Origin: an uncultured Burkholderiaceae bacterium
Lineage (GTDB): Bacteria; Pseudomonadota; Gammaproteobacteria; Burkholderiales; Burkholderiaceae
Assembly (NCBI GenBank): GCA_937871985.1
Contig: CALMPB010000463.1
Span: 1-16,552, forward strand
DNA: 16,552 nucleotides
Reading direction: 5' to 3'
The notes below the pieces were generated by a model. The model did no database searches and was not told the DNA's origin. It saw only the letters and a program-made list of their open reading frames with translations. Both the position numbers and the translations under genes were made by a program. This document shows, piece after piece, positions 2,597-16,310 of the stretch (within the stretch, counting starts at the first letter, position 1; every line of letters begins with the position of its first letter).

Positions 2597-2597
2597 T
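2569..2597 (+). promoter_or_regulatory. Candidate promoter of the toxin-antitoxin operon
   Basis: TGGAAA (2569-2574) and TATAGT (2592-2597) are separated by 17 bases and resemble -35 and -10 boxes, with a small CCCG-TTT-CGGG palindrome between them. The predicted transcription start would fall at about 2604, only a few bases before the ATG at 2610 and within the apparent ribosome-binding site. The operon may therefore start elsewhere, or the toxin may be poorly translated from this promoter. Confidence 0.3.
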
Positions 2598-2609
2598 TTG
2601 AAGGTCAAG

Positions 2610-2993: not shown

Positions 2994-3279
2994 ATCCCTG
3001 CGTGGCGATCTGGCCGCGCTCCACGAAGCGGGAGCGATCGGCAAGGTAACGATGCGCGAGTTCGACGCAATCTGCCCGCCGCCGGTGCGGGAGTTCAGTG
3101 CTTTCGATATCAAGCGGCTGCGTGAAGCCTTGAAGTTTAGCCAGCCGGTGTTCGCTCTTCATCTACACACGTCGGCCTCGACCGTGCGCAAGTGGGAACA
3201 AGGCGAAACCCATCCCACGGGGCCAGCGCTCAAACTGCTCAACGTCATCGCCGACAAGGGCCTGCAGGCCATCATCTGA
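2977..3279 (+). CDS. Helix-turn-helix antitoxin (HigA/NadS-like)
   Basis: A GTG start at 2977 is chosen because TTGGAGG lies at 2964-2970, six bases upstream. The frame continues open further 5', but that part is only toxin-gene sequence in another frame. The 100-aa product has an N-terminal part that may contact the toxin (1-40). A Cro/C1-type HTH follows at about 44-95, with IKRLREALKFSQPVFA, STVRKWEQG and a LKLLNVI helix. The W-E-x-G segment is characteristic of this HTH family. As an antitoxin it should neutralise the upstream toxin and repress the operon, possibly at palindromic sites upstream of 2610. It overlaps the toxin gene by 17 bases, suggesting coupled translation. Confidence 0.87.
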   Translation: MSKIIESLRGDLAALHEAGAIGKVTMREFDAICPPPVREFSAFDIKRLREALKFSQPVFALHLHTSASTVRKWEQGETHPTGPALKLLNVIADKGLQAII

Positions 3280-3301
3280 TGCCTGACGAGGGAGACAGGC
3301 A

Positions 3302-4120
3302 TTGGCGACGCGAATTACCCCTTTCAACTCACAGCATCTTGAAGCCGCCTGCCGCGTGCTCGCCGATACCGAACGCGGTCTGAGCGGTACACAGATCGAG
3401 CGGCTGCTGCAGGAAATCGAGGTTGCCGACACGTCGCCCGGCATGACAAAGTGGAAGCGGTTGTTCAATGCGCTGGCCGGTGCGCAGAACCACCACCAGA
3501 TCGGCAACCATCTCATCATGTTCATCAACCGCGCGATGAACCCGGTGAACTACGCCCGCGATCCCGCGACGTTCGCTTGGCGGCGCGACGAACTCAATGT
3601 CGTCCTTGCCTTCTCCGGTTTCTACGTGCGCGATGACGGCAAGGTTGCTCACGCCGATAAGGCCACGACGCTTGATGCCGCCCGCGCCCGCGCGGGACGA
3701 CTCAAGGCCGCACTGGAAAGCCGCGTCGTCCATGCGGAAGTGCTGAACTACTGCCGCGCCGAGTTGCTGGAGGAAAACTACTTCCATGCCGTGTTCGAGG
3801 CAACGAAAGGTGTTGCGGAGCGGATTCGCCTGCTGTCGGGCCTGAACGGCGACGGCGCGGACTTGGTGAACAAGGCATTCGCAGGCCAGCAACCCGTTCT
3901 CGCCTTGGGACCGCTCACCACCGAGTCCGAAAAGAGCGAGCAGAAAGGCTTTGCCAACCTGCTGATCGGCTTATTTGGCGCCGTGCGCAATCCGCTGGCC
4001 CATGCGCCCAAGACGAATTGGCCCATGTCCGAACAGGACGCACTGGACATCCTGACGCTGGTATCGCTGATTCACCGCAAGCTGGATGGCACCACGAAAT
4101 TAGCGGCCGTATCGCCGTAA
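3302..4120 (+). CDS. TIGR02391 (Ymh)-family protein with HEPN-like RX4H motif
   Basis: The start is a TTG at 3302 preceded by GAGGGAG (3288-3294); the next in-frame ATG would remove 46 residues. The 272-aa protein matches the Ymh/TIGR02391 pattern at its C-terminus: GLFGAVRNPLAHAP (223-236) followed by an A-x-D-I-L-x-L-V-S-L-I-H helix. The RNPLAH segment (R229 to H234) fits the RX4-6H signature of HEPN-superfamily RNases, which often serve as toxins or defence effectors. The N-terminal half is predicted helical and I recognise no domain in it. It sits 22 bases after the antitoxin and 13 bases before the next gene, so all four likely share a transcript. RNase activity is inference from the motif only. 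Confidence 0.8.
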   Translation: MATRITPFNSQHLEAACRVLADTERGLSGTQIERLLQEIEVADTSPGMTKWKRLFNALAGAQNHHQIGNHLIMFINRAMNPVNYARDPATFAWRRDELNVVLAFSGFYVRDDGKVAHADKATTLDAARARAGRLKAALESRVVHAEVLNYCRAELLEENYFHAVFEATKGVAERIRLLSGLNGDGADLVNKAFAGQQPVLALGPLTTESEKSEQKGFANLLIGLFGAVRNPLAHAPKTNWPMSEQDALDILTLVSLIHRKLDGTTKLAAVSP

Positions 4121-4133
4121 GTGAGAGACAGGA

Positions 4134-5417
4134 ATGGACGAGGCGATCGTTGTCTTCTCTCGAAAAGGGATTTTCCAGACCACGATTGCCGCGCGCGACG
4201 TTCGCAGCCGGGAACATGCGCGCAAGCTGTGGCCCTTGGTGTCTCCAGGCGCAGAGCGCCAGATGGTGACATGGGTCAGCCCCTCCTTTGAAAGCGGGAA
4301 GCTGCGTCGGCGATCCCATTTCCGCGTACTTCCTGCCCAGCACACCTTTAACCCCAAAGCGCACTTCGACGATGAAGAAGCCAGCCGATGGCGCGCCGTG
4401 CAGGAAAGTCCTGAACACCGGCGGGCGAAAGAACTTGTCGCGGCCGAACTCTCACGACGTTTGAATGCCGGGCTTGCGATGCCGTGGGCGTTCAAGGATA
4501 TGGATGCGTCGGACTATCCGCTGGAAGGCAACTTGTTGCTCGGCGCCGACCAGGTGGCAACCGAGCATCCCCTGGAGACGCCATTCGGCAGCAAATTCCG
4601 GCTCGACGTTGCCGTGCTCGGCCCCCCGGTCCAGGCTGAACCGATGGTGCTGGGCGGCGTTGAAATCGAACTCGGCCACGCCTTCGACGGGCGCAAGGCT
4701 CTTATCGGGAAGTCGCTCGGATTCCCGCTCATCTCCATCGACATCACCGAGATGACGCTGGACGAACTCACGCCCGAGTGGGCACGGCAGGTATTGACTG
4801 CGACCACGCGGAGCCACGAGCAAGGACGCCGGCAGACCTACATCTATCTCCACGACCTGCTGTACCCCCTCTACGCGCAATTGCCGGCGTTTCTGGACGA
4901 CGAGCAGCGCCATCAGTTCCTTGTGTTTGCCGACGATGAGACCCTGAACAAGTTGGTGCGCTGGATGAACCTGCTCGCCGAAAAGCTGGAGTACCCGAAG
5001 GGTACGGTCGCCGTTGCCTTGGTCAATGGCAAGAACGAACAGTCGCGCAAGATGCTGGAACGCGCGGGACAAGTCGTTGGCCCCGACTGGAGCGAGTTCA
5101 ACGGCCAGCGATGCCTACGACTGACCCTGCCGCGTCCCAAAGGCCCGGCGGATCTCCAGGCCCATCGCTTCCACATGACGATGGCGCGCATCCTGCTGTC
5201 GCACACTGATTCGCTCGTTGGCTACAAGTATTGCAACGGCGTAGACAACCACCACCCTGAAGAAGACGTGTGGGTTGCGCATCGCTGGATCGCCGACTTG
5301 AAAACCCATACCCAGCATCGCGTCTTGCCGAAGCGGCTGGCTGAACCGATCAACAGATTGATCGCGGTGGTTTCGGACCTGCATCGCAATCACGCGGCTG
5401 CCAGCCAAGAGGCGTGA
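4134..5417 (+). CDS. CoiA-like protein with PD-(D/E)XK-type nuclease core (tentative)
   Basis: This 427-aa protein is not one I can name with certainty. Its features follow the order of CoiA-like competence proteins: a basic segment ending in SHFR (61-64), then SPEHRRAKELVAAEL (92-106), then a nuclease-like core. The core reads FRLDVAVLG (155-163), GVEIELGHAF (175-184), K188 or K193, and LISIDI (199-204). D158, E177/E179 and the lysine could form a PD-(D/E)XK site. The C-terminal half (about 215-427) is unrecognised, with aromatic-rich helices and a HH/W-rich patch near 373-385. It follows the Ymh gene by 13 bases. A two-gene defence or anti-plasmid cassette is plausible. Other nuclease families cannot be excluded. 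Confidence 0.6.
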   Translation: MDEAIVVFSRKGIFQTTIAARDVRSREHARKLWPLVSPGAERQMVTWVSPSFESGKLRRRSHFRVLPAQHTFNPKAHFDDEEASRWRAVQESPEHRRAKELVAAELSRRLNAGLAMPWAFKDMDASDYPLEGNLLLGADQVATEHPLETPFGSKFRLDVAVLGPPVQAEPMVLGGVEIELGHAFDGRKALIGKSLGFPLISIDITEMTLDELTPEWARQVLTATTRSHEQGRRQTYIYLHDLLYPLYAQLPAFLDDEQRHQFLVFADDETLNKLVRWMNLLAEKLEYPKGTVAVALVNGKNEQSRKMLERAGQVVGPDWSEFNGQRCLRLTLPRPKGPADLQAHRFHMTMARILLSHTDSLVGYKYCNGVDNHHPEEDVWVAHRWIADLKTHTQHRVLPKRLAEPINRLIAVVSDLHRNHAAASQEA

Positions 5418-5494
5418 CCATCCCCCGTCGGAAGTCAGCCGATAGGCAAGCATTCCTGCGGAGTTACGCGCCTATTTGCAAAGAGCATTGAATC

Positions 5495-6283
5495 TCAGTC
5501 CGTAGTCGGTTTTGAGGCTCTTTTCCGCGGGGCCGAAGAAGGCAAAGACGGCAAGCACTCAAACAAGCGTTCTGCATAGACGAACCCCATCCGTCTGACC
5601 GCGCCCTGATCGAAATACAGCAGCCAAGCGGCAAGTAATGCCAGCGAAATGAGCAGTGTCAAGCCTGCGGCAAGCCCCGGATCGGCAAGGTGCTCTAGGT
5701 TAAAATGAGGAGGTACTACCTGCAGAATCTTTGCAATCAGCAATCCGTAGACGATGCCCAGGAGGCACGACACGATGCCGGCAGGCTTCATTGCCAGCAT
5801 ATTGCGGTGAAATCCGTAGGCGATGTTCTCTTTCAGCAAGAGCTGCTTGTTGGAACGCGTGAGTTCGCGAAGCCGCTTTGTGGCGCCAACGTAGATGTCG
5901 TCTGCCTTGTCAGGGCTTGCTGATTCTTCTTCTGCCGTTGGCATGGCGATGCCCAGCTTGGCCGTGATCGCCGTGTGGTAGCGCTGCTTGCTGACACCAT
6001 CGAGAAACTTGTCGCGATGGCGTAACGCGATGGTTGTCGGCATACCGCCCCACCTTGCAACCAGGATCTCTTCAAGCTTCTTCCCGCGCCCGCGAGCTAC
6101 GCTCGCAAGCGCATAAATGGCACCGCAGCCACCAAGCAAGCCGATCACGCCTGTAAGTACCGGGTGCTTTGCGCCGTAGACGCACAACAAAGGAACGAGC
6201 AGCGGTAACGCTACAAGAAGTCCTGGGATTACGCGCGCCTTGCGCTCATAGGGGTCTTTGACCAGTTCAAAAATAGTTGTCAT
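5495..6283 (-). CDS. Four-TM membrane protein, candidate effector or sensor
   Basis: The 262-aa protein has two hydrophobic segments near the N-terminus (about 19-36 and 42-61), a polar cytoplasmic-type middle of about 100 residues (65-165) and two more membrane segments (about 167-189 and 204-225), ending in a short basic tail. The 2TM-soluble-2TM plan recalls the small membrane effectors (SLATT and S-4TM types) that accompany nucleotide-signalling and other defence systems. I see no diagnostic motif, so the likeness is only topological. The conserved-looking KENIAYGFHRNMLAMKP (151-167) sits just before TM3. Its ATG lies 6 bases after the stop of the WYL gene, with no clear ribosome-binding site, suggesting translational coupling. 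It could act as an abortive-infection effector or as membrane-bound substrate of the conjugation machinery. Confidence 0.7.
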   Translation of the reverse strand: MTTIFELVKDPYERKARVIPGLLVALPLLVPLLCVYGAKHPVLTGVIGLLGGCGAIYALASVARGRGKKLEEILVARWGGMPTTIALRHRDKFLDGVSKQRYHTAITAKLGIAMPTAEEESASPDKADDIYVGATKRLRELTRSNKQLLLKENIAYGFHRNMLAMKPAGIVSCLLGIVYGLLIAKILQVVPPHFNLEHLADPGLAAGLTLLISLALLAAWLLYFDQGAVRRMGFVYAERLFECLPSLPSSAPRKRASKPTTD

Positions 6284-6289
6284 GGGCGT

Positions 6290-7192
6290 TCAGCTTTGGG
6301 CCGACAAGGCATCAATATAGGGTTGAATTTCATCGCGGTTCTTTAAAGTGATCTGCTGCGCGAGAGGGTCGGGTGCTTCCTTGGTATGCAAGCCCAAACG
6401 CCTCAGCGTGTAATACAAAAACGCTTGGCGGCATGGAAGTTTGACCTGTCCGTCTTCCATTCCATAGTCCAACTCCAGGACTCGTTTCTTGGCAGCGGGC
6501 AAATCGGGGTGCGGTGCAAGCACCAGCGTCAAGAGAGTTTGCCAGTGCGAATCTTGGCTGGCGTCCACTTGGCTCGCTTCGAAGCCGTCGATGCGCAGGA
6601 TTCGGGCGAGGACGAAATCACTGAAGCGCTGGCGTTTGTGGCAAAACGCGCGCATGTGCCAGCGAAAACCGTCATTACCAAGGGCGTGGGGAGACAGCAG
6701 ACGAACCGATTCGTCCATGGACGTCATGGACTGGTAGCTCACCCAAATGGCTTCCTGCTGCCGAATTGCCCGGACCACTGCTTCGACGGTCTGTTCATTG
6801 ATCGTGCGCCAGGGGGACGGCGCCCAATCTGCCTCAAGTGCTGAGCCGATAAAGCTGGCCGCAGGCTCGATGACTCCCATCTTGGTGGCCAGCAGCTCCG
6901 CTAGATAGTGTTGCGCCGAACTTCGTTGGTAAAGCGGGTGAAAACTCGGCGCTGCCGTGTAGGTCTTGGAACTGCGGTCGTAAGTCAGGTTGCTCGGCGC
7001 CAACTCCGTGTACTTGGCAATGTCCAGTGACGCCTGGGGAACCGATATGCCGAAGTGCTCAGTGAGATCCATTCGATTAATGTGCCGTTCCCAGCGCAAA
7101 CGGAAATCGATGAATTGAAGTCTGCTTTCCAACCCCCAACTTAGCCCTTTGGGCTCAGCAGGATTGGCGGCAGTGACAGAGGGCTCTTGCAT
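6290..7192 (-). CDS. WYL-domain transcriptional regulator (CapW/BrxR-like)
   Basis: The 300-aa protein has the layout of the defence-associated regulators CapW (CBASS) and BrxR (BREX). The N-terminal winged HTH is at about 22-85, with LTEHFGISVPQASLDIAKY and APSNLTYD. The WYL domain is at about 140-205, with IWVSYQSM, LLSPHALGNDGFRWHMRAF and FVLARI. A C-terminal WCX-like extension covers about 215-300. These proteins are known to repress defence operons and may release DNA on sensing a ligand. Here it is transcribed away from the MBL/E2-E1-JAB operon, and the gap between them is AT-rich with inverted repeats. It most likely represses both itself and the divergent arm. The family assignment is firm; the ligand and target site are inferred. 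Confidence 0.9.
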   Translation of the reverse strand: MQEPSVTAANPAEPKGLSWGLESRLQFIDFRLRWERHINRMDLTEHFGISVPQASLDIAKYTELAPSNLTYDRSSKTYTAAPSFHPLYQRSSAQHYLAELLATKMGVIEPAASFIGSALEADWAPSPWRTINEQTVEAVVRAIRQQEAIWVSYQSMTSMDESVRLLSPHALGNDGFRWHMRAFCHKRQRFSDFVLARILRIDGFEASQVDASQDSHWQTLLTLVLAPHPDLPAAKKRVLELDYGMEDGQVKLPCRQAFLYYTLRRLGLHTKEAPDPLAQQITLKNRDEIQPYIDALSAQS

Positions 7193-7280
7193 CAGTTGCG
7201 CCTAAAAAGTAGACGGATATAAAAAATAGTCGTACATTAACTATACGCGATCATCCTTCGGTCGTCTACCCGGAGCCCCA
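7193..7280. promoter_or_regulatory. Divergent promoter region with candidate WYL-regulator operator
   Basis: This 88-bp gap is far more AT-rich than its surroundings and must hold the promoters of both arms. It contains GTAGACG (7209-7215) with its exact complement CGTCTAC (7263-7269), and in the middle ATAGT (7226-7230) with ACTAT (7240-7244) around 9 bases. TATACG (7242-7247) could serve as a -10 for the rightward operon, so the inner repeat would overlap a promoter. That is the expected place for a repressor site. CGGAG at 7271-7275 is the probable ribosome-binding site of the MBL gene. Confidence 0.55.
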
Positions 7281-8474
7281 ATGCCCACAACCATCACGTT
7301 TTTTCCCGTCGACAACGGGGACATGACCCTCATCAAGTTCGGCGACCTCGACGCAACCACCCTGCTGATCGACGTAAACATCAGGCAAGACGCCGACGAC
7401 CCTGACGGTGAGGCGCGCGATGTCGCCAAGGATCTGCGCGACCGACTGAAGAAAGATGAGAACGGCAGGCCGTATGTCGATGCGTTCCTGCTGAGCCACC
7501 CGGACCAGGACCATTGCCGAGGCCTGACGCGGCACTTCCACCTGGGGCCGCTGGACAAGTATCCGGATGACAAGAAGGACGACAAGGACAAGAAGATCGT
7601 GATCCGCGAGATATGGTCGTCTCCGATCGTGTTTCGACGCGCCAGCAAGACGCACACCTTGAGTGACGACGCCAAGGCATTCAACACGGAGGCGCGTCGG
7701 CGCGTACAGCTGAACCGCGACAAGAATTTCGTCGTCGGGAACGGCGACCGCATTCAGATCATGGGCGAGGACATCGACGGAAAAACCGATGATCTCACCT
7801 CGATTGTGCGGAAGGTGGACACGCGCTTCTCGACGATCAATGGCAAGAGTTCCGCATTCTTCTCCGCGATTCTTCTGGCACCCTTGGACGCCCAGGACGA
7901 CGAAGAAGAGGAAGAGTGCCTGGTCAAGAACCAGTCCAGCGTGATCTTGAACTTCACATTGGCCGCTGATGCTCAGACGCCGGATGGCGCAAAATTCCTT
8001 ACTGGTGGCGATGCCGAAGTATTTATCTGGAACCGCCAGTGGCAGCGCCACAAGGCCGAAGCCGATGTGCTTGAGTACGACATCATGCAGGCGCCACATC
8101 ACTGTTCCTGGCATTCGCTGTCCTATGACAGTTGGTCGGACTACCGCGAAAAGGCCAAACTTGATGCCGACGCTCGCAAGGCGCTTTCGCAGACCCGCAA
8201 CGGTGCCGTCATCGTCGCCAGTTGCAAGCCGATCGCAGACGACGACAGCGATCCGCCCTGCATCCGCGCAAAGCGTGAATACGTAGCAATCGTGGACGAA
8301 GTAAAAGGCGACTTTTACTGCACGGGCGAATATCCGAGCGAAAAATCCGTGGAGCCCCTCGTTTTCACCGTCACCGCTCAGGGTGTGCAGCCTCCCTCGA
8401 AGAAGGAAGCCGGATCGAAGGCCGCCGCCGTGATCACCTCCGCGCGCGCGCCCATGCCACACGGGGCATCATGA
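7281..8474 (+). CDS. MBL-fold metallo-hydrolase 1 of the E2-E1-JAB operon
   Basis: The 397-aa protein has the metal-binding pattern of the metallo-beta-lactamase fold, in the ComEC/Rec2-like branch. It has LLSHPDQDHCRG (70-81, HxDxDH), NQSSVIL (217-223), the metal-bridging Asp in GGDAE (242-246) and APHHCSWHS (271-279). No signal peptide or TM segment is seen, so it should be cytoplasmic. Two highly charged insertions, lysine/aspartate-rich (95-105) and acidic (206-212), interrupt the fold. The last 30 or so residues, from about 368, look disordered and end PMPHGAS. The stop overlaps the next gene start as ATGA, so the two are translationally coupled. Substrate is unknown; nucleic acid, cyclic nucleotide or a conjugate are all possible. 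Confidence 0.88.
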   Translation: MPTTITFFPVDNGDMTLIKFGDLDATTLLIDVNIRQDADDPDGEARDVAKDLRDRLKKDENGRPYVDAFLLSHPDQDHCRGLTRHFHLGPLDKYPDDKKDDKDKKIVIREIWSSPIVFRRASKTHTLSDDAKAFNTEARRRVQLNRDKNFVVGNGDRIQIMGEDIDGKTDDLTSIVRKVDTRFSTINGKSSAFFSAILLAPLDAQDDEEEEECLVKNQSSVILNFTLAADAQTPDGAKFLTGGDAEVFIWNRQWQRHKAEADVLEYDIMQAPHHCSWHSLSYDSWSDYREKAKLDADARKALSQTRNGAVIVASCKPIADDDSDPPCIRAKREYVAIVDEVKGDFYCTGEYPSEKSVEPLVFTVTAQGVQPPSKKEAGSKAAAVITSARAPMPHGAS

Positions 8475-10726
8475 CGGGCACCATCGCGGACGCACTGCAT
8501 CAACTTCAGCGGCACAGGGGCCTTGTCCGCGTTGGCGAGCCAAGGAAAAGTGGTGAATCGACGCAGATTGAAGTCGATGTTGCTGTTGAATTGCCGAGCA
8601 GGTCTCGGCGCAATGGCGTATCCGGGACCGGAGTGCGCTCGGTCGAGACATGCGTTCTGGTATTCGGCAGTGACTGGCCCATGTCTGCACCCAAGCCTTT
8701 CTTGCGTGCGGACTTCCCACTCAACTTGCCGCACATCAATCCTCATCGCGAAGGCGAGTTGGTCTCGCCTTGTCTGTTCGAGGGATCGTTGGACGAGCTG
8801 CTGCATCGGTTTGGTCTGGACGCCATCGTCGATCAGTTGATCGTTTGGTTGCACAAGGCCGCAGCCGGGACGTTGCTGGACCTTGAACAGGGGTGGGAGC
8901 CGACTCGTCGAGACAGTTGTCCTTCGACCCTTGTATTCAGTGCCGAGAATGTCGCGGCCGCCGCTCCCGCTGACGGCACGATTTTGGTGGTTCCCGCAGG
9001 CTACGTGACGATTGATGGCGGGCTATACGCCATCGTCAATGCCGAACTGACTGCTCAAGTCGATCCTGTGTTCTATCAGGAGGTTCACAACGACAAGTTG
9101 GGTAAATGGGGAAATGGCCATACCGCAGCCTTCATTGCGCGGGCTCCAATAACCGACGGCAACCCGCATGTGGTCGGCCACTATCAACCCGAGACGGTTG
9201 TCGATCTCGCGACGTTGCTTGATCGAGCAGCGGAACTCGGCGTCGATCGTGACGCTTTGGCTCAAGGCTTGGACGGCTACTATGGACGTTCGATTCTGGA
9301 TATGCAGCAAGACTCGCGTGGCTGGACGCATGGCTTGTATGCGATTGTGATTCTGACTGTTCAAAGGCCAGCGTCGCTTGTGGGCTCACCGGGGAGAAGT
9401 ATCGAGGTATTGCCCTACGTGGTGCGCTATGAACTCAACGCTCAATCGCTCCTGGAGCGAAACGCCACGGTTCACCCGGCTTTTCACGCACATGCGTTGT
9501 CTCCCGAACTGCTGGCAAGAACGTCCGGCATTCCATCTGCGGCCACATCGCAGCCGCTGGTCTTGCTCGGCTGCGGAAGCGTGGGGTCGAAAATCGCGAT
9601 GCAACTGGGGCGAGCGGGTTTCGGCTCAATGACCTTCGTCGATAACGAGTCCATGTCGCCTCACAACGCGGCCCGGCATGCACTCATTGAGCGGGCATCG
9701 GTGCTGGTCCCACCTCGGAAGTCGGCGCTGATGAAGACGGCCTTTGAGTCGCTGTCGCATCTTCAATCGCAAGCGTTCGACACCGACGCAGTGACTCTCT
9801 TGGTCGATGCTGCGCAGTTTGCTGCAACCGTTCCGCAGGATGCGGCCCTCATCGTGGATGCGACAGCCTCACTTCAGGTGTTGGCCGCAGAAACGCAATC
9901 AACGGCGCTGAACCAATCCCCTGCGCGGTTGGCACGGATCGTCATGTATGGCCAGGGGCGCTGTGTCGCGGTTTTGCTTGAAGGGCCTGGTCGCGCCGGT
10001 CGGGTTGACGATCTTACGGCATTCTTGTTCGAGTGCTGTCGGTTTGTGCCGGAACTGCGGGCGTCGATTGCTGGCGATACGTCTGAGCCGACGCGTATTT
10101 TTGTGGGCGACAACTGCCGTTCACTGACGATGCCAATGTCCGATGCCGTTGTTTCGCGTTCTGCTTCATTAGCTGGCCTGCAACTGGAACGCTGGCTCGT
10201 TGGCGGACTCCCGAAGGAGGCGACGCTTTGCGCCGGGGTCTCGGATACCGAAGGCCTCGGCATGGCATGGACCAGCACCAGCCTCGGCCCGACCACTGTG
10301 CTCAACGTAGCAGACGATGGTGGCTGGAACATTCGGATTCTGCACCCTGTCGTGCAAGCGATCCATGCTGATGCGCTGCGCTGGGGCGCTCTGGAAACAG
10401 GTGGAGCCTTGGTCGGTCGTATCTCGTTTGAGAATCGAACCATCACCATTGCTGGCCTCGTGGATGCGCCGCCTGACAGCATTCGGGAGGCCGCCCGCTT
10501 CGTCCTTGGGACGAATGGGCTTGTTCAAAATTTGCGCACAGCGAATGGAACCTCTTTGGGGTATCTGGCCTTCATCGGCACTTGGCATAGCCACCCGAAA
10601 GGCGGCGCACATTCGGGCATAGACCGAAATACGTTGCGCGGCATCGCCGAGGATGCTGGCGGCCTTCCCGCCGTGTCGTTGGTATGGACTCCGACAGGAC
10701 TCAGGTGTGCGGTGGATCGCTGGTAA
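8471..10726 (+). CDS. E2-E1-JAB triple-fusion ubiquitin-like conjugation/deconjugation protein
   Basis: This 751-aa protein joins three activities. The E2/UBC-like domain (about 1-150) has PKPFLR, PHIN (87-90) and SPCLFEG, with C101 as the likely thioester cysteine. A linker domain of unknown role follows (about 155-355). The ThiF/E1-like domain (about 360-580) has the nucleotide-binding LLGCGSVGSK (365-374), the acidic D391 (FVDNES), N399 and R402 (NAARH), and a candidate catalytic cysteine at C549 (DNCRSL). The JAB/JAMM protease domain (about 630-751) has E642 (LETGG), H706/H708 (TWHSHP), S715 and D718. E2-E1 fusions with separate JAB proteins occur in type II CBASS (Cap2 and Cap3); here all are in one chain. 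It should activate a C-terminus, transfer it to a target and cut it again. Its donor is not evident nearby. Confidence 0.93.
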   Translation: MTGTIADALHQLQRHRGLVRVGEPRKSGESTQIEVDVAVELPSRSRRNGVSGTGVRSVETCVLVFGSDWPMSAPKPFLRADFPLNLPHINPHREGELVSPCLFEGSLDELLHRFGLDAIVDQLIVWLHKAAAGTLLDLEQGWEPTRRDSCPSTLVFSAENVAAAAPADGTILVVPAGYVTIDGGLYAIVNAELTAQVDPVFYQEVHNDKLGKWGNGHTAAFIARAPITDGNPHVVGHYQPETVVDLATLLDRAAELGVDRDALAQGLDGYYGRSILDMQQDSRGWTHGLYAIVILTVQRPASLVGSPGRSIEVLPYVVRYELNAQSLLERNATVHPAFHAHALSPELLARTSGIPSAATSQPLVLLGCGSVGSKIAMQLGRAGFGSMTFVDNESMSPHNAARHALIERASVLVPPRKSALMKTAFESLSHLQSQAFDTDAVTLLVDAAQFAATVPQDAALIVDATASLQVLAAETQSTALNQSPARLARIVMYGQGRCVAVLLEGPGRAGRVDDLTAFLFECCRFVPELRASIAGDTSEPTRIFVGDNCRSLTMPMSDAVVSRSASLAGLQLERWLVGGLPKEATLCAGVSDTEGLGMAWTSTSLGPTTVLNVADDGGWNIRILHPVVQAIHADALRWGALETGGALVGRISFENRTITIAGLVDAPPDSIREAARFVLGTNGLVQNLRTANGTSLGYLAFIGTWHSHPKGGAHSGIDRNTLRGIAEDAGGLPAVSLVWTPTGLRCAVDRW

Positions 10727-10771
10727 AGGCAAAGCCGCCGGCACTTTCTTGGCATAAAACGAAAGGGATGT

Positions 10772-11842
10772 ATGGCTGACTACTTCGAGATCGATTTTCT
10801 TGGCGTCGAAACAGCGAAAAGCGGGGATGCAATCACGCTACGCTATTCGGTGAATGGCACAGAGGGCGTGCACGTCGTTGACGGTGGGTATCTGGATACG
10901 GGAGATCAGCTCGTCGAGCACCTGAAGACGTACTATGGAACAACAGTCATCGACCATGTGATCCTCACACACCCCGATCGCGATCACGCCAATGGGCTGC
11001 GAAAAGTCCTGGAGCAATGCACAGTCAAAAATCTCTGGATCAACAGGCCGTGGATCTATGCAGATCAGTTGATTGATCGATTCGAGACCTATGAATCAGT
11101 TGAAGCACTGAGACGGAAATTGCGCTCCATCTACGATGCCACGGCAATTCTTGAGGATCTTGCGGTTGAGAAGGGAATTCCAATCCATGCCCCTCTTCAG
11201 GGGCAGAACATCGGTCCCTTCATGGTGATGGCACCCACACTAGATCGCTACTTCGACCTGATCGTGGACTCCGCGAAGACACCGGAAGCTGTTGAAGAAA
11301 GTGCTTTGGATAGCGCGCTGAGCAGCATATTCCGGGTGGTGAAGGCCGCGACCGCCTACATCAAGTCCCTGTGGGGCGAGGAATATTTTCCGCCGGAGCC
11401 TACCAGCCGTGAAAATGAAATGAGTGTGGTCCAGTCGGCTGTTCTGAACGGTCATCGTGTCATGCTTACTGGCGATGCCGGGCGTGAAGCGCTGCAAGAG
11501 GTTATTGACTACGCGCCTTTTGCCGGACTCGCGTTGCCAGGCATTCGGTATTTCCAGGTGCCTCATCATGGCGGGCGACACAATGTCTCGACTGAAATTC
11601 TGGATCAACTGGTTGGTCCACGATTGGACAGCATGCCGGACAAGCATACCTGGAATGCCATTTGCAGTTCTGCCAAAGCCGATGAGGATCACCCGCGGAA
11701 GTCCGTAATTCGCGCTGTATTGCACCGGGGTGGGCACTGGGCGGCAACCGAAAGCAAGAATCTCCGCATTGGGGCGGGCATTACCCGCGATGGCTGGGTA
11801 TCAATTCCTCAAGCAGAGTACCCCGAAGAGCAAGAGAGTTGA
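10772..11842 (+). CDS. MBL-fold metallo-hydrolase 2 of the E2-E1-JAB operon
   Basis: The 356-aa protein is a second metallo-beta-lactamase-fold enzyme, clearly different from the first. It has VDGGY (36-40), LTHPDRDHANG (65-75, HxDxDH), ENEMSVV (214-220), LTGDAG (232-237) and VPHHGGRHN (263-271), the set seen in ComEC-like cytoplasmic MBL proteins. No signal peptide is visible. The ATG at 10772 follows AAAGGGA (10762-10768). It lies 45 bases after the triple fusion with no terminator between, so it is the third gene of the operon. The His/Asp metal ligands are all present, so it should be active. It could process nucleic acid or nucleotides as an effector, or remove a modification. Confidence 0.88.
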   Translation: MADYFEIDFLGVETAKSGDAITLRYSVNGTEGVHVVDGGYLDTGDQLVEHLKTYYGTTVIDHVILTHPDRDHANGLRKVLEQCTVKNLWINRPWIYADQLIDRFETYESVEALRRKLRSIYDATAILEDLAVEKGIPIHAPLQGQNIGPFMVMAPTLDRYFDLIVDSAKTPEAVEESALDSALSSIFRVVKAATAYIKSLWGEEYFPPEPTSRENEMSVVQSAVLNGHRVMLTGDAGREALQEVIDYAPFAGLALPGIRYFQVPHHGGRHNVSTEILDQLVGPRLDSMPDKHTWNAICSSAKADEDHPRKSVIRAVLHRGGHWAATESKNLRIGAGITRDGWVSIPQAEYPEEQES

Positions 11843-11896
11843 GCGGGCAGTTTGAGCGTGACGTGCTGTTCATTGGCTTTCTGCCGCCTACGTTAT

Positions 11897-12006
11897 GAGC
11901 GTCCCGGCGTTCCGCCGTCGGACTCGCGGGCTGCGCCCCGCGCCTCATGCCGAGTCGCGGCCACCCGGCTTTGATTCCTGACGCCTCCGGCCTTGCGGGC
12001 CTGCGC
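11897..12006. repeat. 110-bp direct repeat, copy A
   Basis: This G+C-rich stretch begins GAGCGTCCCGGCGTTCCGCC and is repeated in the same orientation at 13136-13245. The copies agree at 98 of 110 positions by eye, with no gaps. It contains a CGGCG-TTC-CGCCG hairpin and ends in the TGACGCCTCCGGCC...GGGCCTGCGC unit also found elsewhere in the backbone. It separates the MBL operon from the next gene, and the gap holds no other coding sequence. Confidence 0.9.
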
Positions 12007-12034
12007 TTGCCTAACTACCAGGTACTTGCAACCT

Positions 12035-13051
12035 ATGCATGCGATGTCGCTCTCTGAGTTTCCAATTTCTGTGCTTGAACTCCACACATGGCCGTGGTGG
12101 CGAAGATTTTGGAATCGACCGCCGGCGCTTGTACGGAAGCGGTGTGAAGCTTGGCGTGAGCTATTGGGGCTCAAGGAGTCGGCAGGAAAAAATGTGCTCC
12201 TCAACACCGCAAAATCGAAGATTTTTGATGACTCACGCCGTCGATGGGACATCCTGGACAATCTTAATCGCAGCAACTTTACTTTGCGGAGCCGATTTTC
12301 GGGCTTAGCCTCGGGCGCTAAGGAGGCTTTCCAAAGTCCTCATGGATCGCTAGTGCAAGTGACGATGGTGCCTCACTTTGAATGCGACGCAAGCGATATA
12401 GAGGGCATCTCCGCAAGCAAGTCGGCAGATATGCCACACGAAAGTGTGGATGTCTTTGGTGCCTACTATATTGATGAGCAGAATCGATATGCCAGAAAAG
12501 GAAAGCCCCCGCTCGGACTGGATGATGCGAGCTTAAAAGAGCTTTGTTCTCATGGCGAAATTCGGCTACTGCACGGACGTGGCTCCGACACGTTTAGCGT
12601 GCGAGCTTGGGATGGCCGTTTGTTCCTTGACAACAGTGGCGGATCTCACCATCTTGCGGGCGCCGTGCATGTCGCTAAGCGCATTGGCGCGCGCATTCAC
12701 CTCGCCTCGAAACTCTATCTCTACCAGCTCAACCATTTGACTGTGCAATGGCTGCTCGATGGATTTCATCTGGTATTGCTCCCCAAGGATTTGGCCGGAC
12801 AGATGCTATGGACTGTGAAGAGCTTGGTAGGTTCTGGTTCGAACATGGAGTTCCCGCCTGTACTGGCCGAAGGCACGCTTTTGGCATTCCCCCGGGGTTC
12901 GCAAATCGCCGAGTCCGTGATGGCAGAACTATTGAGTCAGGGGCACCACGATTTGGGCAATGATTTGAGGGAAGCGCTGACTGCGCAACAGCGGTTCTTG
13001 ACTGAATCGACGGCTCTATGGACAAAGCAATTTTCATCTCCAACCTGCTGA
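12035..13051 (+). CDS. Unrecognised 338-aa protein, single-gene cargo between direct repeats
   Basis: The frame is open further upstream, but that part is the repeat, so translation probably starts at ATG 12035 or ATG 12044; neither has a strong ribosome-binding site. I cannot assign a family with confidence. The N-terminal region (about 15-65) is basic and tryptophan-rich (PWWRRFWNRPP). The middle has a distinctive block, WDGRLFLDNSGGSHHLAGAVHVAKRIGA, at about residues 190-217, which faintly recalls proteins annotated DUF6685 or a ParB/Srx-like pocket; this is memory only. No signal peptide, TM segment or HTH is evident. The gene is less G+C-rich than the backbone, suggesting recent acquisition. 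It may be an independent defence or regulatory cargo gene, or a fourth member of the MBL system. Confidence 0.72.
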   Translation: MHAMSLSEFPISVLELHTWPWWRRFWNRPPALVRKRCEAWRELLGLKESAGKNVLLNTAKSKIFDDSRRRWDILDNLNRSNFTLRSRFSGLASGAKEAFQSPHGSLVQVTMVPHFECDASDIEGISASKSADMPHESVDVFGAYYIDEQNRYARKGKPPLGLDDASLKELCSHGEIRLLHGRGSDTFSVRAWDGRLFLDNSGGSHHLAGAVHVAKRIGARIHLASKLYLYQLNHLTVQWLLDGFHLVLLPKDLAGQMLWTVKSLVGSGSNMEFPPVLAEGTLLAFPRGSQIAESVMAELLSQGHHDLGNDLREALTAQQRFLTESTALWTKQFSSPTC

Positions 13052-13135
13052 CGATGCTCTAAATGCGTGTGGTCACGTCGTTACCTATAGATCGCGAGTT
13101 GAAGCTCCACATTTCATAGGAACTTAGCGACAAAA

Positions 13136-13245
13136 GAGCGTCCCGGCGTTCCGCCGTCGGGCTCGCGGGCTACGCCCCATGCCTCGTACCGAGTCATGGC
13201 CATCCGGCTTTGATCCCTGACGCCTCCGGCCCTGTGGGCCTGCGC
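13136..13245. repeat. 110-bp direct repeat, copy B
   Basis: This is the second copy of the repeat at 11897-12006, 1239 bases downstream. The 12 differences from copy A are all transitions. Directly after the aligned part, copy B has seven extra bases (GCTGCGC, 13246-13252) before both copies resume with TTGCC. This copy is joined to the radC leader and is probably the resident backbone version. Confidence 0.9.
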
Positions 13246-13285
13246 GCTGCGCTTGCCCATCCGTCGTCTCTGCGGGCGGGGTGTG

Positions 13286-13445
13286 GGCGGTCTTGCTGTT
13301 CCCTTCACCGTATCACGGCGTTCTCGCCGTCAAGGGCTGCGCGCGCCTTGCGCGCTTGCGTCCTGGCGGCCGTCGCTGACCCCTGACCGCTTGCGCTGCG
13401 CCGTGCTGAGGCCGGTTCCGGGCAATTCCGCCCGAGCAACCGGAG
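13286..13445 (+). repeat. Leader repeat, copy 1 (radC 5' region)
   Basis: It shares a 58-base identical block (13286-13343), a 32-base identical block (13377-13408) and a 20-base identical block (13413-13432) with 14063-14221. The similarity carries on to the ribosome-binding site AACCGGAG. The first block contains the hairpin ACGGCG-TTCT-CGCCGT (13315-13330). The conserved position directly ahead of two genes suggests a cis-acting 5' leader or promoter, not random duplication. Confidence 0.85.
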
Positions 13446-13452
13446 CATGATC

Positions 13453-13959
13453 ATGTCGCAACTTTCTCTGTCTCTCGATTCCTCGCTGCTGGTGCGTGAC
13501 GACCAGGGGCGCTATCTGCCGGCGACTGCCGACCAAATTCTGGAAGCTGCGCGGTACGTTATCGACCAGAAAACTCCGCGCGGGACGCTGTTCACTTCGC
13601 CGGCGCTGGTCAAGGACTACCTGCGCACCAAGCTGGCCAACTTCGAGCATGAGGTTTTCGCTACGCTGTTCCTCGACAGCCAGAACCGTCTGATCGAATA
13701 CGTGGAGATGTTTCGCGGCACCATCGACCAGGCATCGGTGTATCCGCGCGAAGTCGTGAAAACGGCACTGCAACACAACGCAGCGGCCGTGATCTTTTCG
13801 CACAATCATCCGAGCGGCAATTCCGAGCCGAGCCAGGCGGACAAGCTGCTGACCCAACGCCTCAAGGAAGCCCTGGCGCTGGTGGACGTGCGCACGCTGG
13901 ATCACATCGTCGTCGGCGGCGAGGCCACTACGTCATTCGCTGAGCGTGGCCTGATCTGA
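13453..13959 (+). CDS. radC: RadC-like JAB/MPN-domain protein of the element backbone
   Basis: The start is set at ATG 13453, not ATG 13447, because GGAG at 13442-13445 is then seven bases away, as in the duplicated leader of the next gene. The 168-aa protein is the short mobile-element form of RadC: it lacks the N-terminal HhH part of chromosomal RadC and is mostly the MPN+ domain. The motif SHNHPSGNSEPSQAD has the normal JAMM spacing (H, x, H, seven residues, S, two residues, D), with the glutamate in NFEHEVF. RadC proteins of this kind are common in ICEs and phages and their role, perhaps anti-restriction or DNA processing, is unsettled. A terminator follows directly. Confidence 0.95.
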   Translation: MSQLSLSLDSSLLVRDDQGRYLPATADQILEAARYVIDQKTPRGTLFTSPALVKDYLRTKLANFEHEVFATLFLDSQNRLIEYVEMFRGTIDQASVYPREVVKTALQHNAAAVIFSHNHPSGNSEPSQADKLLTQRLKEALALVDVRTLDHIVVGGEATTSFAERGLI

Positions 13960-13963
13960 CACA

Positions 13964-13985
13964 GGGGGGCTGCGGCCCCTTTTTT
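13964..13985 (+). terminator. Rho-independent terminator of radC
   Basis: GGGGC (13966-13970), a TGCG tetraloop and GCCCC (13975-13979) form a stable hairpin extended by two wobble pairs. It is followed by six T residues (13980-13985), five bases after the radC stop. Confidence 0.85.
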
Positions 13986-14062
13986 GCTGCGCCCGGTGGC
14001 GCAGCTACGGCCCTCGCGGGCCTGCGCTTGCTGAAGACAGGTGTGCGTAGGTGGTGGTGTGA

Positions 14063-14221
14063 GGCGGTCTTGCTGTTCCCTTCACCGTATCACGGCGTTC
14101 TCGCCGTCAAGGGCTGCGCGTGCAAGCACGCTTGCGGCCTCCCGGCCGTCCTTGACCCCTGACCGCTTGCGCTGCGCCGTGCTGGTGACGGTTCCGGGCA
14201 ATTCCGCCTGTGTAACCGGAG
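14063..14221 (+). repeat. Leader repeat, copy 2 (5' region of the Cys/His protein gene)
   Basis: This second copy of the radC leader lies 776-777 bases downstream, including the hairpin ACGGCG-TTCT-CGCCGT (14092-14107) and the GGTTCCGGGCAATTCCGCC block, and ends at GGAG (14218-14221), the ribosome-binding site of the next gene. The coding sequences that follow the two copies are unrelated, so only the leader is duplicated. Confidence 0.85.
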
Positions 14222-14227
14222 ATCGTC

Positions 14228-14617
14228 ATGAACGATAAATCACATGTTTCCCTCGAACAGCACGTTTGCCTGGTCTGCGGCAAAGCGTTCGATACCGGCA
14301 CCATCCTGCTCGACAAGCGCCTGCGTGCAAGCATGGAGCACCATACGAAGACGGGCTGGGGCCTATGCCCCGAGCACCAGAAGCTGGCCGACGATGGTTT
14401 CGTCGCGCTAGTCGAATGCGACCCGCAGCGCAGCGGCTCGCCGGGTGGCCGCCTGAAGCCCGAGCAGGCTTATCGCACGGGCCGGCTGGCGCACCTGAAG
14501 CATCATGTGTTCGCCAAGGTGTTCAACGTGCCGATCGAGGCCAACCAGCCTTGCGTCTTCGTTAAGCCGGGCGTCATAGAGCAGCTTGAAGCGATGGTGT
14601 CGCCGGCGACGAGCTGA
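14228..14617 (+). CDS. Small conserved ICE protein with Cys/His zinc-binding motif
   Basis: The 129-aa product starts at ATG 14228, six bases after GGAG. It has CLVCG (C14, C17) and LCPEHQ (C47, H50), which could hold one zinc ion in a C2-CH arrangement. The rest is polar, with a conserved-looking RTGRLAHLKHHVFAKVFN segment (84-100). I recognise it as a gene type that follows radC in related elements but know no function. No membrane segment or signal is present. It is bounded by the duplicated leader upstream and a strong terminator downstream, so it forms its own transcription unit. Confidence 0.88.
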   Translation: MNDKSHVSLEQHVCLVCGKAFDTGTILLDKRLRASMEHHTKTGWGLCPEHQKLADDGFVALVECDPQRSGSPGGRLKPEQAYRTGRLAHLKHHVFAKVFNVPIEANQPCVFVKPGVIEQLEAMVSPATS

Positions 14618-14622
14618 TCGCG

Positions 14623-14991
14623 CTAACAACCCGGCGCGTCGTCCTTTCGGGCGACGCGCCATTCTTTTTGCTGCGCCCGATGCCGATGCCTTCGCGCCCG
14701 CGGCGCTTCGCTTGCCTCCAGGGGAAAGCCCTGCGGGCTATCCCCGCCGCGCGATGCTTGGCGCCCCTGGAAGACCGCCGAACCGGCTGCGCCGGATCGG
14801 CCAGAAGCCAATCGCAGTCCCAGCAGCAGAAGCAATTTCTCGATGCCTTGTGCATGAGGGCTGTCCTGGGCGTGATGTTCATCGAGCATCGAAGTCAGGG
14901 CGTCCCCGGCCAAGAAGACATGGCCGGTCGCGCTGTCGTGCGCGTTGCGCATCGAGCCGCCTGCGGCGTCTCGCCCCTGACGGGCTTCCAT
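14623..14991 (-). CDS. Doubtful minus-strand gene or gene remnant
   Basis: An ATG at 14991 (reading leftward) follows a GAGGGA ribosome-binding-like site and opens 122 codons. Residues about 14-65 look protein-like: MRNAHDSATGHVFLAGDAL, then a DEHH segment and a leucine-rich helix (EKLLLLLGLRLASG). The last 55 residues are Arg/Gly/Ala-rich and run into the stem of the opposing terminator, as expected of non-coding sequence. It may be a truncated gene whose original 3' end was lost. I recognise no family. Confidence 0.3.
   Translation of the reverse strand: MEARQGRDAAGGSMRNAHDSATGHVFLAGDALTSMLDEHHAQDSPHAQGIEKLLLLLGLRLASGRSGAAGSAVFQGRQASRGGDSPQGFPLEASEAPRARRHRHRAQQKEWRVARKDDAPGC
14633..14669 (+). 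terminator. Rho-independent terminator of the Cys/His protein gene
   Basis: GGCGCGTCGTCC (14633-14644) and GGGCGACGCGCC (14649-14660) form a 12-bp stem with one G-T wobble around a TTTC loop. The T-rich tail ATTCTTTTT follows. It begins 16 bases after the stop codon. Confidence 0.9.
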
Positions 14992-15012
14992 CGTTCCCTC
15001 GCTCCGCTCGGC

Positions 15013-15062
15013 TGACGCCTCCGGCCCGGCTTCTAGATCCGGGCCTGCGCGCTTCGCTTGCC
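15013..15062. repeat. Third copy of a dispersed G+C-rich hairpin unit
   Basis: TGACGCCTCCGGCC followed by GGGCCTGCGC and CTTGCC also occurs at 11979-12011 and 13218-13257, with a weaker version near 14011-14033. In this copy GGCCCGG (15023-15029) and CCGGGCC (15039-15045) are perfect complements. The units lie only in intergenic backbone DNA. Confidence 0.65.
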
Positions 15063-15152
15063 GTGCGGTTCGGCACATAGGGATGGCCGTTGCCATGTCC
15101 AGCCGTCTTCCCTGACCTCATCACCTTGTCTGCGACTGTAGCCCGCGCCCGT

Positions 15153-15233
15153 GTGCCGTCAAGGCACGCAGGGCCGTGTCCTCGGCTGCGCCTGCGGGCC
15201 GCACCAACCCTGCGCTTGCCTCCTTGACGGCAC
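15153..15233. repeat. Nested inverted repeat upstream of the DUF932 gene
   Basis: GTGCCGTCAAGG (15153-15164) is the exact complement of CCTTGACGGCAC (15222-15233). Inside it, CGCAGGG (15167-15173) pairs with CCCTGCG (15208-15214). Together they can form an 81-base stem-loop with a side bulge. No T-run follows. It lies 172 bases before the DUF932 start and could be a structured leader, a small RNA or a replication/transfer-related site. Confidence 0.7.
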
Positions 15234-15405
15234 CCGTTCGCGCGCTCCTGACCGTCGCGGGCGATGAACTCAGGAAAGACGGTGGCAACAGGGCTAACCG
15301 GGTTCCTCGTGCCGACCGCACCGAACAGCTGAAAGGCTGGGCTCCGAATCTAGGAATCCGGTGTGCGGTGTGAACAGCAAACCTCTTTTTGTCAGGAGAA
15401 AGACC

Positions 15406-16236
15406 ATGCAACTCGCATCCCGTTTCGCTTCCCGTTCCCCGGCACTGCGCAGCGAATACCCGCTGACCGATGACCAGATTCACCGTGTCGCGCCGTCCAT
15501 CTTCGCGGACGCCCCGCATGAAAGCCGTTCGCAGCGGTACGCCTACATCCCCACCGCCGCCGTGCTGACCGAGCTTCGGAAAGAAGGCTTCCAGCCCTTC
15601 ATGGTGACGCAGACCCGCGTGCGCGATGAAGGCAAGCGCGAGCACACGAAACACATGATTCGCCTGCGCCACGCCAGCCAGATCAACGGCGCGGAGGCTA
15701 ACGAAATCGTGCTGCTGAACTCGCATGACGGCACCAGCAGCTATCAGATGCTGGCCGGCATGTTCCGGTTCGTGTGCAGCAATGGTCTTGTCTGCGGCGA
15801 CACCGTGGCGGACGTGCGCGTGCCCCACAAAGGCGACGTAGCCGGCTCCGTCATCGAAGGCGCTTTCGAGGTGTTGAGCGGCTTCGAGCGGGTGAAGGAA
15901 TCCCGCGATGCCATGCGCGCGATCACGCTGGACGAAGGCGAGGCCGAAGTGTTCGCCCGTTCCGCGCTGGCCCTCAAGTACGACCCCACCGACAACAAGC
16001 CAGCGCCCATCACCGAATCGCAAATCCTGATGCCGCGCCGGTTCGACGACCGCCGCCCGGACTTGTGGAGCGTGTTCAACCGCACCCAAGAAAACCTGAC
16101 CAAAGGCGGATTGCATGGCCGCAGCGCCAACGGGCGCCGCCAGCAGACCCGCCCGGTGCAAGGCATTGATTCCGATGTGCGCCTCAATCGCGCCCTCTGG
16201 ATGCTGGCCGATGGCCTGCGCCAGTTGAAAGCCTGA
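15406..16236 (+). CDS. DUF932-family protein of the element backbone
   Basis: The 276-aa product begins at ATG 15406, preceded by AGGAG (15394-15398); the upstream in-frame extension has no such site. It carries the core pattern of DUF932 proteins, found on plasmids, phages and ICEs: LLNSHDGTSSYQMLAGMFRF (103-122) with CSNGLVCG (124-131) right after it, and RDAMRAITLDEGEA (167-180). The function of the family is unknown; its constant place near parB and repA suggests a part in maintenance or replication. The protein looks full length and soluble. It is followed after 74 bases by parB in the same direction, so the two may be co-transcribed. Confidence 0.93.
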   Translation: MQLASRFASRSPALRSEYPLTDDQIHRVAPSIFADAPHESRSQRYAYIPTAAVLTELRKEGFQPFMVTQTRVRDEGKREHTKHMIRLRHASQINGAEANEIVLLNSHDGTSSYQMLAGMFRFVCSNGLVCGDTVADVRVPHKGDVAGSVIEGAFEVLSGFERVKESRDAMRAITLDEGEAEVFARSALALKYDPTDNKPAPITESQILMPRRFDDRRPDLWSVFNRTQENLTKGGLHGRSANGRRQQTRPVQGIDSDVRLNRALWMLADGLRQLKA

Positions 16237-16259
16237 ACCCTTCCGATCTTTTACCCGCC

Positions 16260-16278
16260 GGAGGGGCGGTTCCCCTCC
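16260..16278 (+). repeat. Small hairpin between the DUF932 gene and parB
   Basis: GGAGGGG (16260-16266) and CCCCTCC (16272-16278) form a perfect 7-bp stem with a 5-nt loop. The following sequence, ATTCCCTTGTTTC, lacks a clean T-run. It may be a weak terminator or attenuator that lowers parB expression relative to the upstream gene. Confidence 0.5.
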
Positions 16279-16310
16279 ATTCCCTTGTTTCACTTGATTG
16301 GAGATACACC

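Follow-up and report, generated by a model that had tools for sequence, protein, structure and literature searches.

Bil and Bub systems carry the logic of E1, E2 and JAB enzymes within a defence operon, together with ubiquitin-like proteins. In type II CBASS the partner of the Cap2 (E2-E1) and Cap3 (JAB) enzymes is a CD-NTase. In 1,583 cGAS proteins whose operons contain both Cap2 and Cap3, Gly or Ala is highly conserved at the final position and the penultimate positions vary, a pattern absent from other operon types; Cap2 joins this terminal residue to lysines, and deletion of the Gly abolishes joining (Jenson et al., PMC10097602). A triple-module E2-E1-JAB protein, almost always adjoining a metallo-beta-lactamase (MBL), was listed by Iyer et al. 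in 2006 (Table 1, row 6a), in an entry that gives ‘usually two genes’ and describes neither a membrane partner nor a donor tail (PMC1779556). In NCBIfam 20.0 the two proteins have equivalog models, ‘6A-MBL_cap2_3’ and ‘6A-MBL_enzyme’, whose descriptions assign them to an anti-phage system. PADLOC holds PDC-M48, a candidate only, with a membrane protein (M48A) and an MBL-fold protein (M48B). MBL-fold proteins are also found paired with trypsin-like proteases (HamM, Avs1a, LmuA, DRT), HamM being a pro-nuclease opened by proteolysis (PMC12799240).

Here we analyse a 6A-MBL locus within a 16,552-nucleotide stretch of DNA from an uncultured Burkholderiaceae bacterium, the whole of which we call the window. 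A preliminary description gave E2-E1-JAB with MBL neighbours as noted by comparative genomics, and this layout as not known to have an experimental account. Within the open-licence literature (preprints and most subscription papers lie outside this scope) we found no experimental account of 6A-MBL or PDC-M48 and no statement of what 6A-MBL conjugates; the pair of MBL and E2-E1-JAB proteins is already catalogued, by Iyer et al. and by NCBIfam. What we add, by inference, is the MBL hydrolase as donor and a membrane protein as third component.

Materials and Methods

Loci were found by scanning contigs of GTDB species genomes with an E2-E1-JAB alignment, which gave 74 loci. We also used 240 protein relatives, these being the best-listed 120 of 388 for E2-E1-JAB and the best-listed 120 of 3405 for the first MBL protein (MBL1), and loci from IMG/VR; relatives in the counts below are not independent of each other. 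The NCBIfam model was dropped as a means of finding relatives because 149 of 150 genomes matched it, mostly through the ThiF part, and one of the 150 scored above cut-off. Systems were treated as non-redundant at less than 85% MBL1 identity, leaving 40, of which 31 have enough flanking sequence and nine are short-flanked.

Two sets of MBL1 proteins were used for the tail. The larger (184 sequences, redundant, window included) joins locus MBL1s of 320-480 aa scoring at least 100 bits to listed proteins of at least 376 aa, excluding P0171, P0177, P0235, P0236 and P0240 (short), L079 (fragment) and L060 (fused). The smaller holds 62 locus MBL1s of 300-480 aa and at least 60 bits, no two of them the same once the last 30 residues are set aside. 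Stand-alone loci of the second MBL type (MBL2) number 20, made up of 13 (3 + 10) from earlier collections and seven of eight plasmid regions fetched from 43 records; L100, which has an MBL2-like ORF and a JAB fragment and lacks a membrane family, lies outside the 20.

Results

Layout of the locus. The gene for MBL1, a ComEC-type MBL-fold hydrolase and our proposed donor (modifier), occupies positions 7281..8474 of the forward strand and overlaps by 4 nt the gene for a single 751-aa E2-E1-JAB chain (8471-10726, forward), after which comes the gene for MBL2, another MBL-fold hydrolase (10772..11842, forward). Divergent from this operon, on the reverse strand, are the genes for a WYL-domain protein (6290..7192; Pfam WYL at 46.7 bits) and for a 262-aa membrane protein (5495..6283). 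The WYL protein, a probable transcriptional regulator, has a phmmer homologue in 13 of the 40 non-redundant systems. In E. coli CEC15, the features named under the match include a ‘BrxR family’ regulator. As the preliminary description had it, the window proteins scanned with Pfam, PADLOC and NCBIfam include no CD-NTase and no ubiquitin-like domain, nor do the spaces between genes leave room for the latter; ten window proteins scanned with Pfam contain no trypsin-like protease domain.

The E2-E1-JAB chain. Pfam places E2, E1 and JAB in that order within one chain, which scores 556 bits to NF058523 (‘6A-MBL_cap2_3’) against a cut-off of 320 (NCBIfam 20.0). Structure comparison put Cap2 with CD-NTase first (7to3, and 7tsq with the CD-NTase tail). 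Residues 1-605 (8471..10285, forward) align with Cap2 and residues 606-751 (10286..10726, forward), the JAB/JAMM isopeptidase part, with Cap3, whose structure 9ild was, among the matches listed, the only one spanning the whole JAB part; the E1 part also matches the structures of Atg7, MccB and ThiF. The catalytic residues named earlier, C101 of E2 (8771-8773), C549 of E1 (10115-10117) and E642, H706, H708 and D718 of JAB, are invariant in an alignment of 45 relatives, and the chain is intact, as first described.

MBL1 and its linkage. MBL1 scores 441 bits to NF058524 (‘6A-MBL_enzyme’; cut-off 220), in a match that stops at residue 368, before the tail. Across an alignment of 50 sequences H73, D77, H78, D244, H273 and H274 are invariant and D75 is nearly so. 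The fold is that of the ComEC MBL domain 9ic4, and the AlphaFold model has 308 of 397 residues at pLDDT of at least 90. MBL1 is probably a nuclease of the ComEC type, and we lean, with some reserve, towards its having nuclease activity. MBL1 lies beside E2-E1-JAB on the same strand in 68 of the 72 loci with an E2-E1-JAB match of at least 100 bits; the exceptions are two fragments (L002, L090), a contig edge (L036) and L060, in which MBL1 and E2 are fused in one frame.

MBL2. The second hydrolase scores 511 bits to PDLC04676, placing it in PADLOC PDC-M48B; its residues H67, D69, D71, H72, D235, H265 and H266 are invariant among 20 sequences. The window thus has two different MBL neighbours flanking E2-E1-JAB, as originally described. 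Co-conservation of all three genes had been expected too, and this extends to MBL1 but not to MBL2, found in just five of the 40 non-redundant systems (L031, L068, L094, L112, L133; nine of the 40 are short-flanked). On this count MBL2 is accessory and was dropped as a core component, and the ‘sandwich’ of E2-E1-JAB between two MBLs is a local variant.

The MBL1 tail. The last 23 residues of MBL1 (375-397; 8403..8471, forward) have pLDDT below 50 in the AlphaFold model, are predicted to be disordered and end P-H-G-A-S. Tails of relatives are some 20-30 residues long and variable in sequence save for the final Gly. In the window this is Gly395 (codon 8463..8465, forward). Of the 23 columns invariant among 50 MBL1s at 26-92% identity to the window protein, it alone falls within the tail. 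HG or YG followed by zero to three residues ends 180 of the 184 MBL1s in the larger, redundant set of relatives listed; the others are P0154 (PHG plus six), P0201 (truncated), L104 (FG plus four) and P0193 (HG plus four), a chimera to be ignored. In the smaller set, a Gly lies zero to four residues from the end of 61 of 62 MBL1s and an Ala takes its place in the remaining one (L114). Endings across these wider loci are HG, GGGYG, SYG, TYG, PRAG and VGFG, each with zero to four further residues, and once GGGGYA; the number of residues after the Gly is zero in 31 of the 61, one in three, two in 23, three in one and four in three.

Two controls were made. HG or YG occurs in the last six residues of 21 of 1246 other ORFs of at least 150 aa from the same loci, these being mechanical ORFs and not annotated genes. 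Such an ending is found in none of 120 MBL2 relatives, three of which finish in Gly, and in none of seven stand-alone MBL2-type genes.

The signature is the same as that of cGAS beside Cap2 and Cap3, here next to a fusion of the two. The preliminary description saw no donor in the window; we differ on this point, and conclude from the conserved tail that MBL1 is very probably the donor, that is, a ubiquitin-like tag, for the E2-E1-JAB chain. The short extensions recall ubiquitin precursors, and JAB would be suited to trimming them; in the window the extension is Ala-Ser (8466..8471, forward).

One locus, L114, is of an intermediate kind. Its MBL1 ends in Ala (GGGGYA) and scores 375 bits to NF058524, above cut-off. 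Nearby are a 628-aa E2-E1 (Cap2) protein (348 bits to a CBASS E1-E2 model), a separate 182-aa Cap3-type JAB (125 bits to one for CBASS JAB proteins) and an ORF of 149 aa in which four TM segments are predicted; none of the five other ORFs of at least 200 aa has a PADLOC match, so that no CD-NTase was seen at the locus. This is the layout of type II CBASS with MBL1 replacing the CD-NTase. The idea that tail extensions require a fused JAB was dropped, as L114, the sole locus where JAB is not fused, has a separate one.

Membrane proteins. The protein encoded at 5495..6283 (reverse) has four TM segments by hydropathy and no match in Pfam or NCBIfam at cut-off or in PADLOC. We call its relatives family I. 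They lie divergent beside the WYL gene in some systems, directly after E2-E1-JAB in others (L062, L080, L087, L089, L093, L098) or directly before MBL1 (L082, L092, L097), and most systems without family I carry one of three other small TM families. A member of family I (14 systems), II (8), III (5) or IV (1) lies no more than 1,125 bp from the MBL1-E2-E1-JAB pair in 28 of the 31 non-redundant systems with enough flank, a linkage that is partly circular, the family profiles having been grown from the same loci and then counted; the systems with none are L072, L104 and L112. Stand-alone MBL2-type genes, too, have a member of these four families within 200 bp in 17 of 20 loci (L124 weakly, at 22 bits), the misses being L108, L123 and L129, with the MBL at a contig end in the last two. 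A strong match to E2-E1-JAB, MBL1 or MBL2 is lacking in 33 scanned loci (28 ordinary ThiF loci among them; 148 kb in all), and none of 89 family ORFs fell there.

Plasmid records give a similar picture. For family I, E2-E1-JAB, MBL1, MBL2 or an annotated MBL is found within about 1 kb in 40 of 46 records, a PDC-M48B MBL adjoins in two more, and four are unlinked (H117, H120, H121 and H126; the last has IS elements around it and an MBL2 fragment about 2.9 kb away). In family II an MBL or E2-E1-JAB lies within about 1.3 kb in 18 of 21 records, H140 is linked to a JAB remnant, and H139 and H147 are unlinked. All six family III records are linked, as is the one examined of the two for family IV (the second being H155). 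Family I protein occurs in five of 299 genomes, three times in systems like that of the window. In L148 the order is MBL1 (ending PRAG), E2-E1-JAB, MBL2, family II, a second MBL2 and family I; the fifth locus, L147, has no MBL or E2-E1-JAB within the 14 kb fetched.

Family IV corresponds to PADLOC PDC-M48A (L084, 202 bits). Merging the four families into one was rejected, as hhalign links I with III (probability 93.8) and other pairs score at most 19.9. In relatives they are interchangeable, and we think it highly likely that the membrane protein is a functional component of the system. It lies outside the three-gene span first proposed, which is incomplete, and it is a better conserved third component than MBL2. 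Since these families sit near both 6A-MBL systems and stand-alone MBL2-type genes, membrane protein plus MBL looks like the core, with E2-E1-JAB an added conjugation module, like Cap2 and Cap3 in CBASS.

Mobility and distribution. Two loci, one from Pseudomonas indoloxydans JCM 14246 (L034) and one from a Sulfuricella MAG that may be mis-binned (L057), match positions 2471-16552 of the window at 99.97-99.99% identity over 14,082 bp, that being all that window and fetched locus share; Stutzerimonas stutzeri BAL361 (L033) is 99.99% identical over 12,198 bp. E2-E1-JAB is found at 91% on twelve Acinetobacter plasmids. The island is highly mobile, and the location on a mobile element proposed earlier is borne out by these near-identical stretches. 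A natural version of the system, with WYL, membrane protein, MBL1 and E2-E1-JAB, is found on pSE11-2 of E. coli SE11, whose 172-aa membrane protein belongs to none of the four families; at least 80% of the pSE11-2 stretch is present in 29 of 5,426 complete E. coli genomes. The window E2-E1-JAB DNA itself has no match in E. coli genomes, the relative there being of a distant type found by protein.

Discussion

Intact catalytic sites, a Cap2/Cap3 architecture, a near-invariant tail Gly and linkage to membrane proteins, as read from the sequences, suggest that the locus is, with good probability, an anti-phage locus of the 6A-MBL kind, operating as type II CBASS does, an MBL hydrolase replacing the CD-NTase. 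From these features we infer the conjugation of MBL1, trimming by JAB, nuclease activity, a role for the membrane protein and a role in defence. On the last point we agree with the preliminary description that this is a probable anti-phage system, the basis being the NCBIfam name ‘anti-phage 6A-MBL system’.

We propose that JAB would trim the Ala-Ser extension of MBL1, and that E1 would then adenylate the C-terminal Gly, which would pass to C549 of E1 and on to C101 of E2 before an isopeptide bond joins MBL1 to lysines of target proteins; Gly395 would thus be the site of adenylation, thioester formation and joining. JAB may also disassemble the conjugates. MBL1 would be both tag and working enzyme, conjugation serving to prime, concentrate or place a probable ComEC-type nuclease. 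The membrane protein may be the partner of MBL1, as effector, anchor or acceptor; the WYL regulator would control expression; and MBL2 may be an added copy from a related pair of membrane protein and MBL.

With 6A-MBL the window shares an E2-E1-JAB chain and an adjoining MBL, both above NCBIfam cut-offs, although it adds MBL2 and has the membrane protein and WYL genes divergent. With type II CBASS it shares the Cap2-like E2-E1, the Cap3-like JAB and a putative donor bearing a conserved terminal Gly or Ala on a disordered tail (here Gly395 of MBL1, from a different protein family). It has no CD-NTase, however, and is therefore not a member of that class though it may work alike; the donor proposed here belongs to the MBL-fold hydrolases, the counterparts of Cap2 and Cap3 form one chain, and the Gly is often followed by one to four residues. 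PDC-M48 shares M48B, to which MBL2 belongs, and the occurrence of families I-IV beside stand-alone M48B-type genes as well as near 6A-MBL systems, but it is without a conjugation module, MBL2 relatives lack the HG/YG ending, and the M48A models match family IV clearly and not family I of the window. Bil and Bub differ in having a ubiquitin-like protein gene. The pairs of MBL pro-nuclease and trypsin-like protease have a related MBL fold, and the window has a conjugation/JAB chain where the protease would be.

These pairs inspire the alternative that survives best, although we think it unlikely: MBL1 would be an effector nuclease and not a donor, its tail a JAB substrate or docking peptide that silences a pro-nuclease until cut, as with HamM and its trypsin-like protease, and E2-E1 would join an unlinked host ubiquitin-like protein. 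Proteolytic opening is established for HamM (PMC12799240), and MBL1 scores weakly to LmuA (45.7 bits), RTasMBL (27.3) and Avs1a (13.9), MBLs of protease-activated systems. Conservation nevertheless falls on a Gly near the very end and not on an internal cleavage loop, and about half of the MBL1s (the 31 of 61) end at the Gly itself, leaving no residue to cut off. JAB folds, moreover, cleave isopeptide and Gly-X bonds, not trypsin-type sites.

Rather improbable is that the MBL1 tail, once activated by E1, goes to an acceptor other than protein or undergoes a chemical change, whether joining to lipid, as for Atg8, or formation of an adenylate or thiocarboxylate, as for MccA or ThiS. The matches of the E1 part to Atg7, MccB and ThiF would fit such a role, as would a membrane protein near 28 of 31 systems, and Jenson et al. 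allow for lipid in the case of cGAS (PMC10097602); the conserved E2 cysteine and the JAB domain point instead to reversible amide chemistry, and Cap2, the closest structure, makes lysine conjugates (PMC10097602). That the Gly motif is imposed at the DNA level where the MBL1 and E2 genes overlap (by a start codon or ribosome site), and not by protein function, is hardly credible, for although the 4-nt overlap recurs in 33 of 68 loci, the Gly is kept in loci with no overlap (gaps as large as 27 nt), and all four Gly codons (GGA 12, GGG 16, GGC 20, GGT 13, with L082, ending HG, and L099, ending YG, contributing a neighbouring Gly) and all three stops (TAA, TGA, TAG) are in use, so that selection on the Gly acts at the protein level.

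Keeping MBL1 as the donor, we tentatively put forward a wider possibility. A membrane protein and a ComEC-like MBL might form a minimal two-gene defence module, found alone in stand-alone MBL2/PDC-M48B loci or combined with E2-E1-JAB as a ‘type II’ form. In the latter the MBL nuclease would be the modifier. Its conjugation via the tail Gly, with the membrane partner as a possible acceptor, would dock it at the membrane, where it would cut phage DNA as this enters, as a split and inducible counterpart of ComEC.

As to what the 6A E1 and E2 enzymes conjugate, the neighbouring MBL hydrolase is a candidate. Proteins with two to four TM segments, unnamed by the family models, would become a component of the system, and the PDC-M48 candidate would be joined to 6A-MBL as a conjugation-free form of one design. 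If MBL1 is indeed the donor, ubiquitin-style conjugation took at least two unrelated enzymes, a CD-NTase and an MBL hydrolase, as tags, and the donor therefore need not have a ubiquitin fold.

Other genes of the island

Besides the 6A-MBL locus, the island carries a TIGR02391/Ymh protein gene (3302-4120, + strand) that matches the PADLOC model PD-Lambda-3_B at 592 bits and is therefore a second candidate defence gene. The adjoining gene (4134-5417) is without a match in PADLOC or NCBIfam. At the integrase end of the island lie a RelE-type toxin gene (Pfam RelE, 153 bits) and the ORF that follows it, together spanning 2598-3279 on the + strand; this ORF, ending at 3279, looks like the HTH antitoxin of that toxin. 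Directly 3′ of MBL2, the second MBL-fold hydrolase gene of the locus, is a DUF6685 protein gene (11993-13051, + strand), which is common to near-identical islands and is also found, at 235 bits, in the Acinetobacter loci L039 and L040.

Phage and viral records

MBL2 (10772-11842, + strand) matches positions 622-871 of PHROG 7043, a ‘tail protein’ family of 1077 positions, at 160 bits, and MBL domains of its type thus appear to be present in some phage proteins. The window's island is itself present at 99.9% identity in a ‘viral’ contig of IMG/VR (L031, IMGVR_UViG_3300011682_000033), which may be an integrated island labelled viral rather than a phage.

Variant architectures

In Methylomonas koyamae R-45383 (L060, 4831-8238), a single 1135-aa frame comprises both MBL1, the proposed conjugation donor, and E2-E1-JAB. 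Because the PHG ending of MBL1 is found there in a different frame from this chain, a frameshift or assembly error within the MBL1 tail is likely. Two very divergent systems, L104 (3846-8487) and L116, have E2-E1-JAB frames of ~1150-1340 aa, that is, with an extra part, and their MBL1 tails end in VGFG followed by one to four residues.

An enterobacterial 6A-MBL system is found on plasmid pSE11-2 of E. coli SE11 (L150, 3481-8407). Its E2-E1-JAB scores 662 bits with NF058523, the NCBIfam model of this chain, higher than that of the window, and a small membrane protein gene of a further kind adjoins the gene for the WYL regulator.

In the split system L114 (6001-10079), MBL1 has a GGGGYA end, Cap2 is of the CBASS type and the JAB, of the Cap3 type, is a protein of its own; a small four-TM ORF comes next, and no CD-NTase match was found on this locus. 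On Polaromonas plasmid pPNAP01 (L157, 1-3513), a ThiF/E2-E1-JAB-type gene is followed by genes for a 269-aa PDC-M48B-like MBL and a family II small membrane protein, an alternative arrangement of these components. In L148 (512-7496), MBL1 and E2-E1-JAB are followed in the same run by MBL2, a membrane protein of family II, another MBL2 and a membrane protein of family I, the family of the window's member; two pairs of membrane protein and MBL thereby adjoin one predicted conjugation module.
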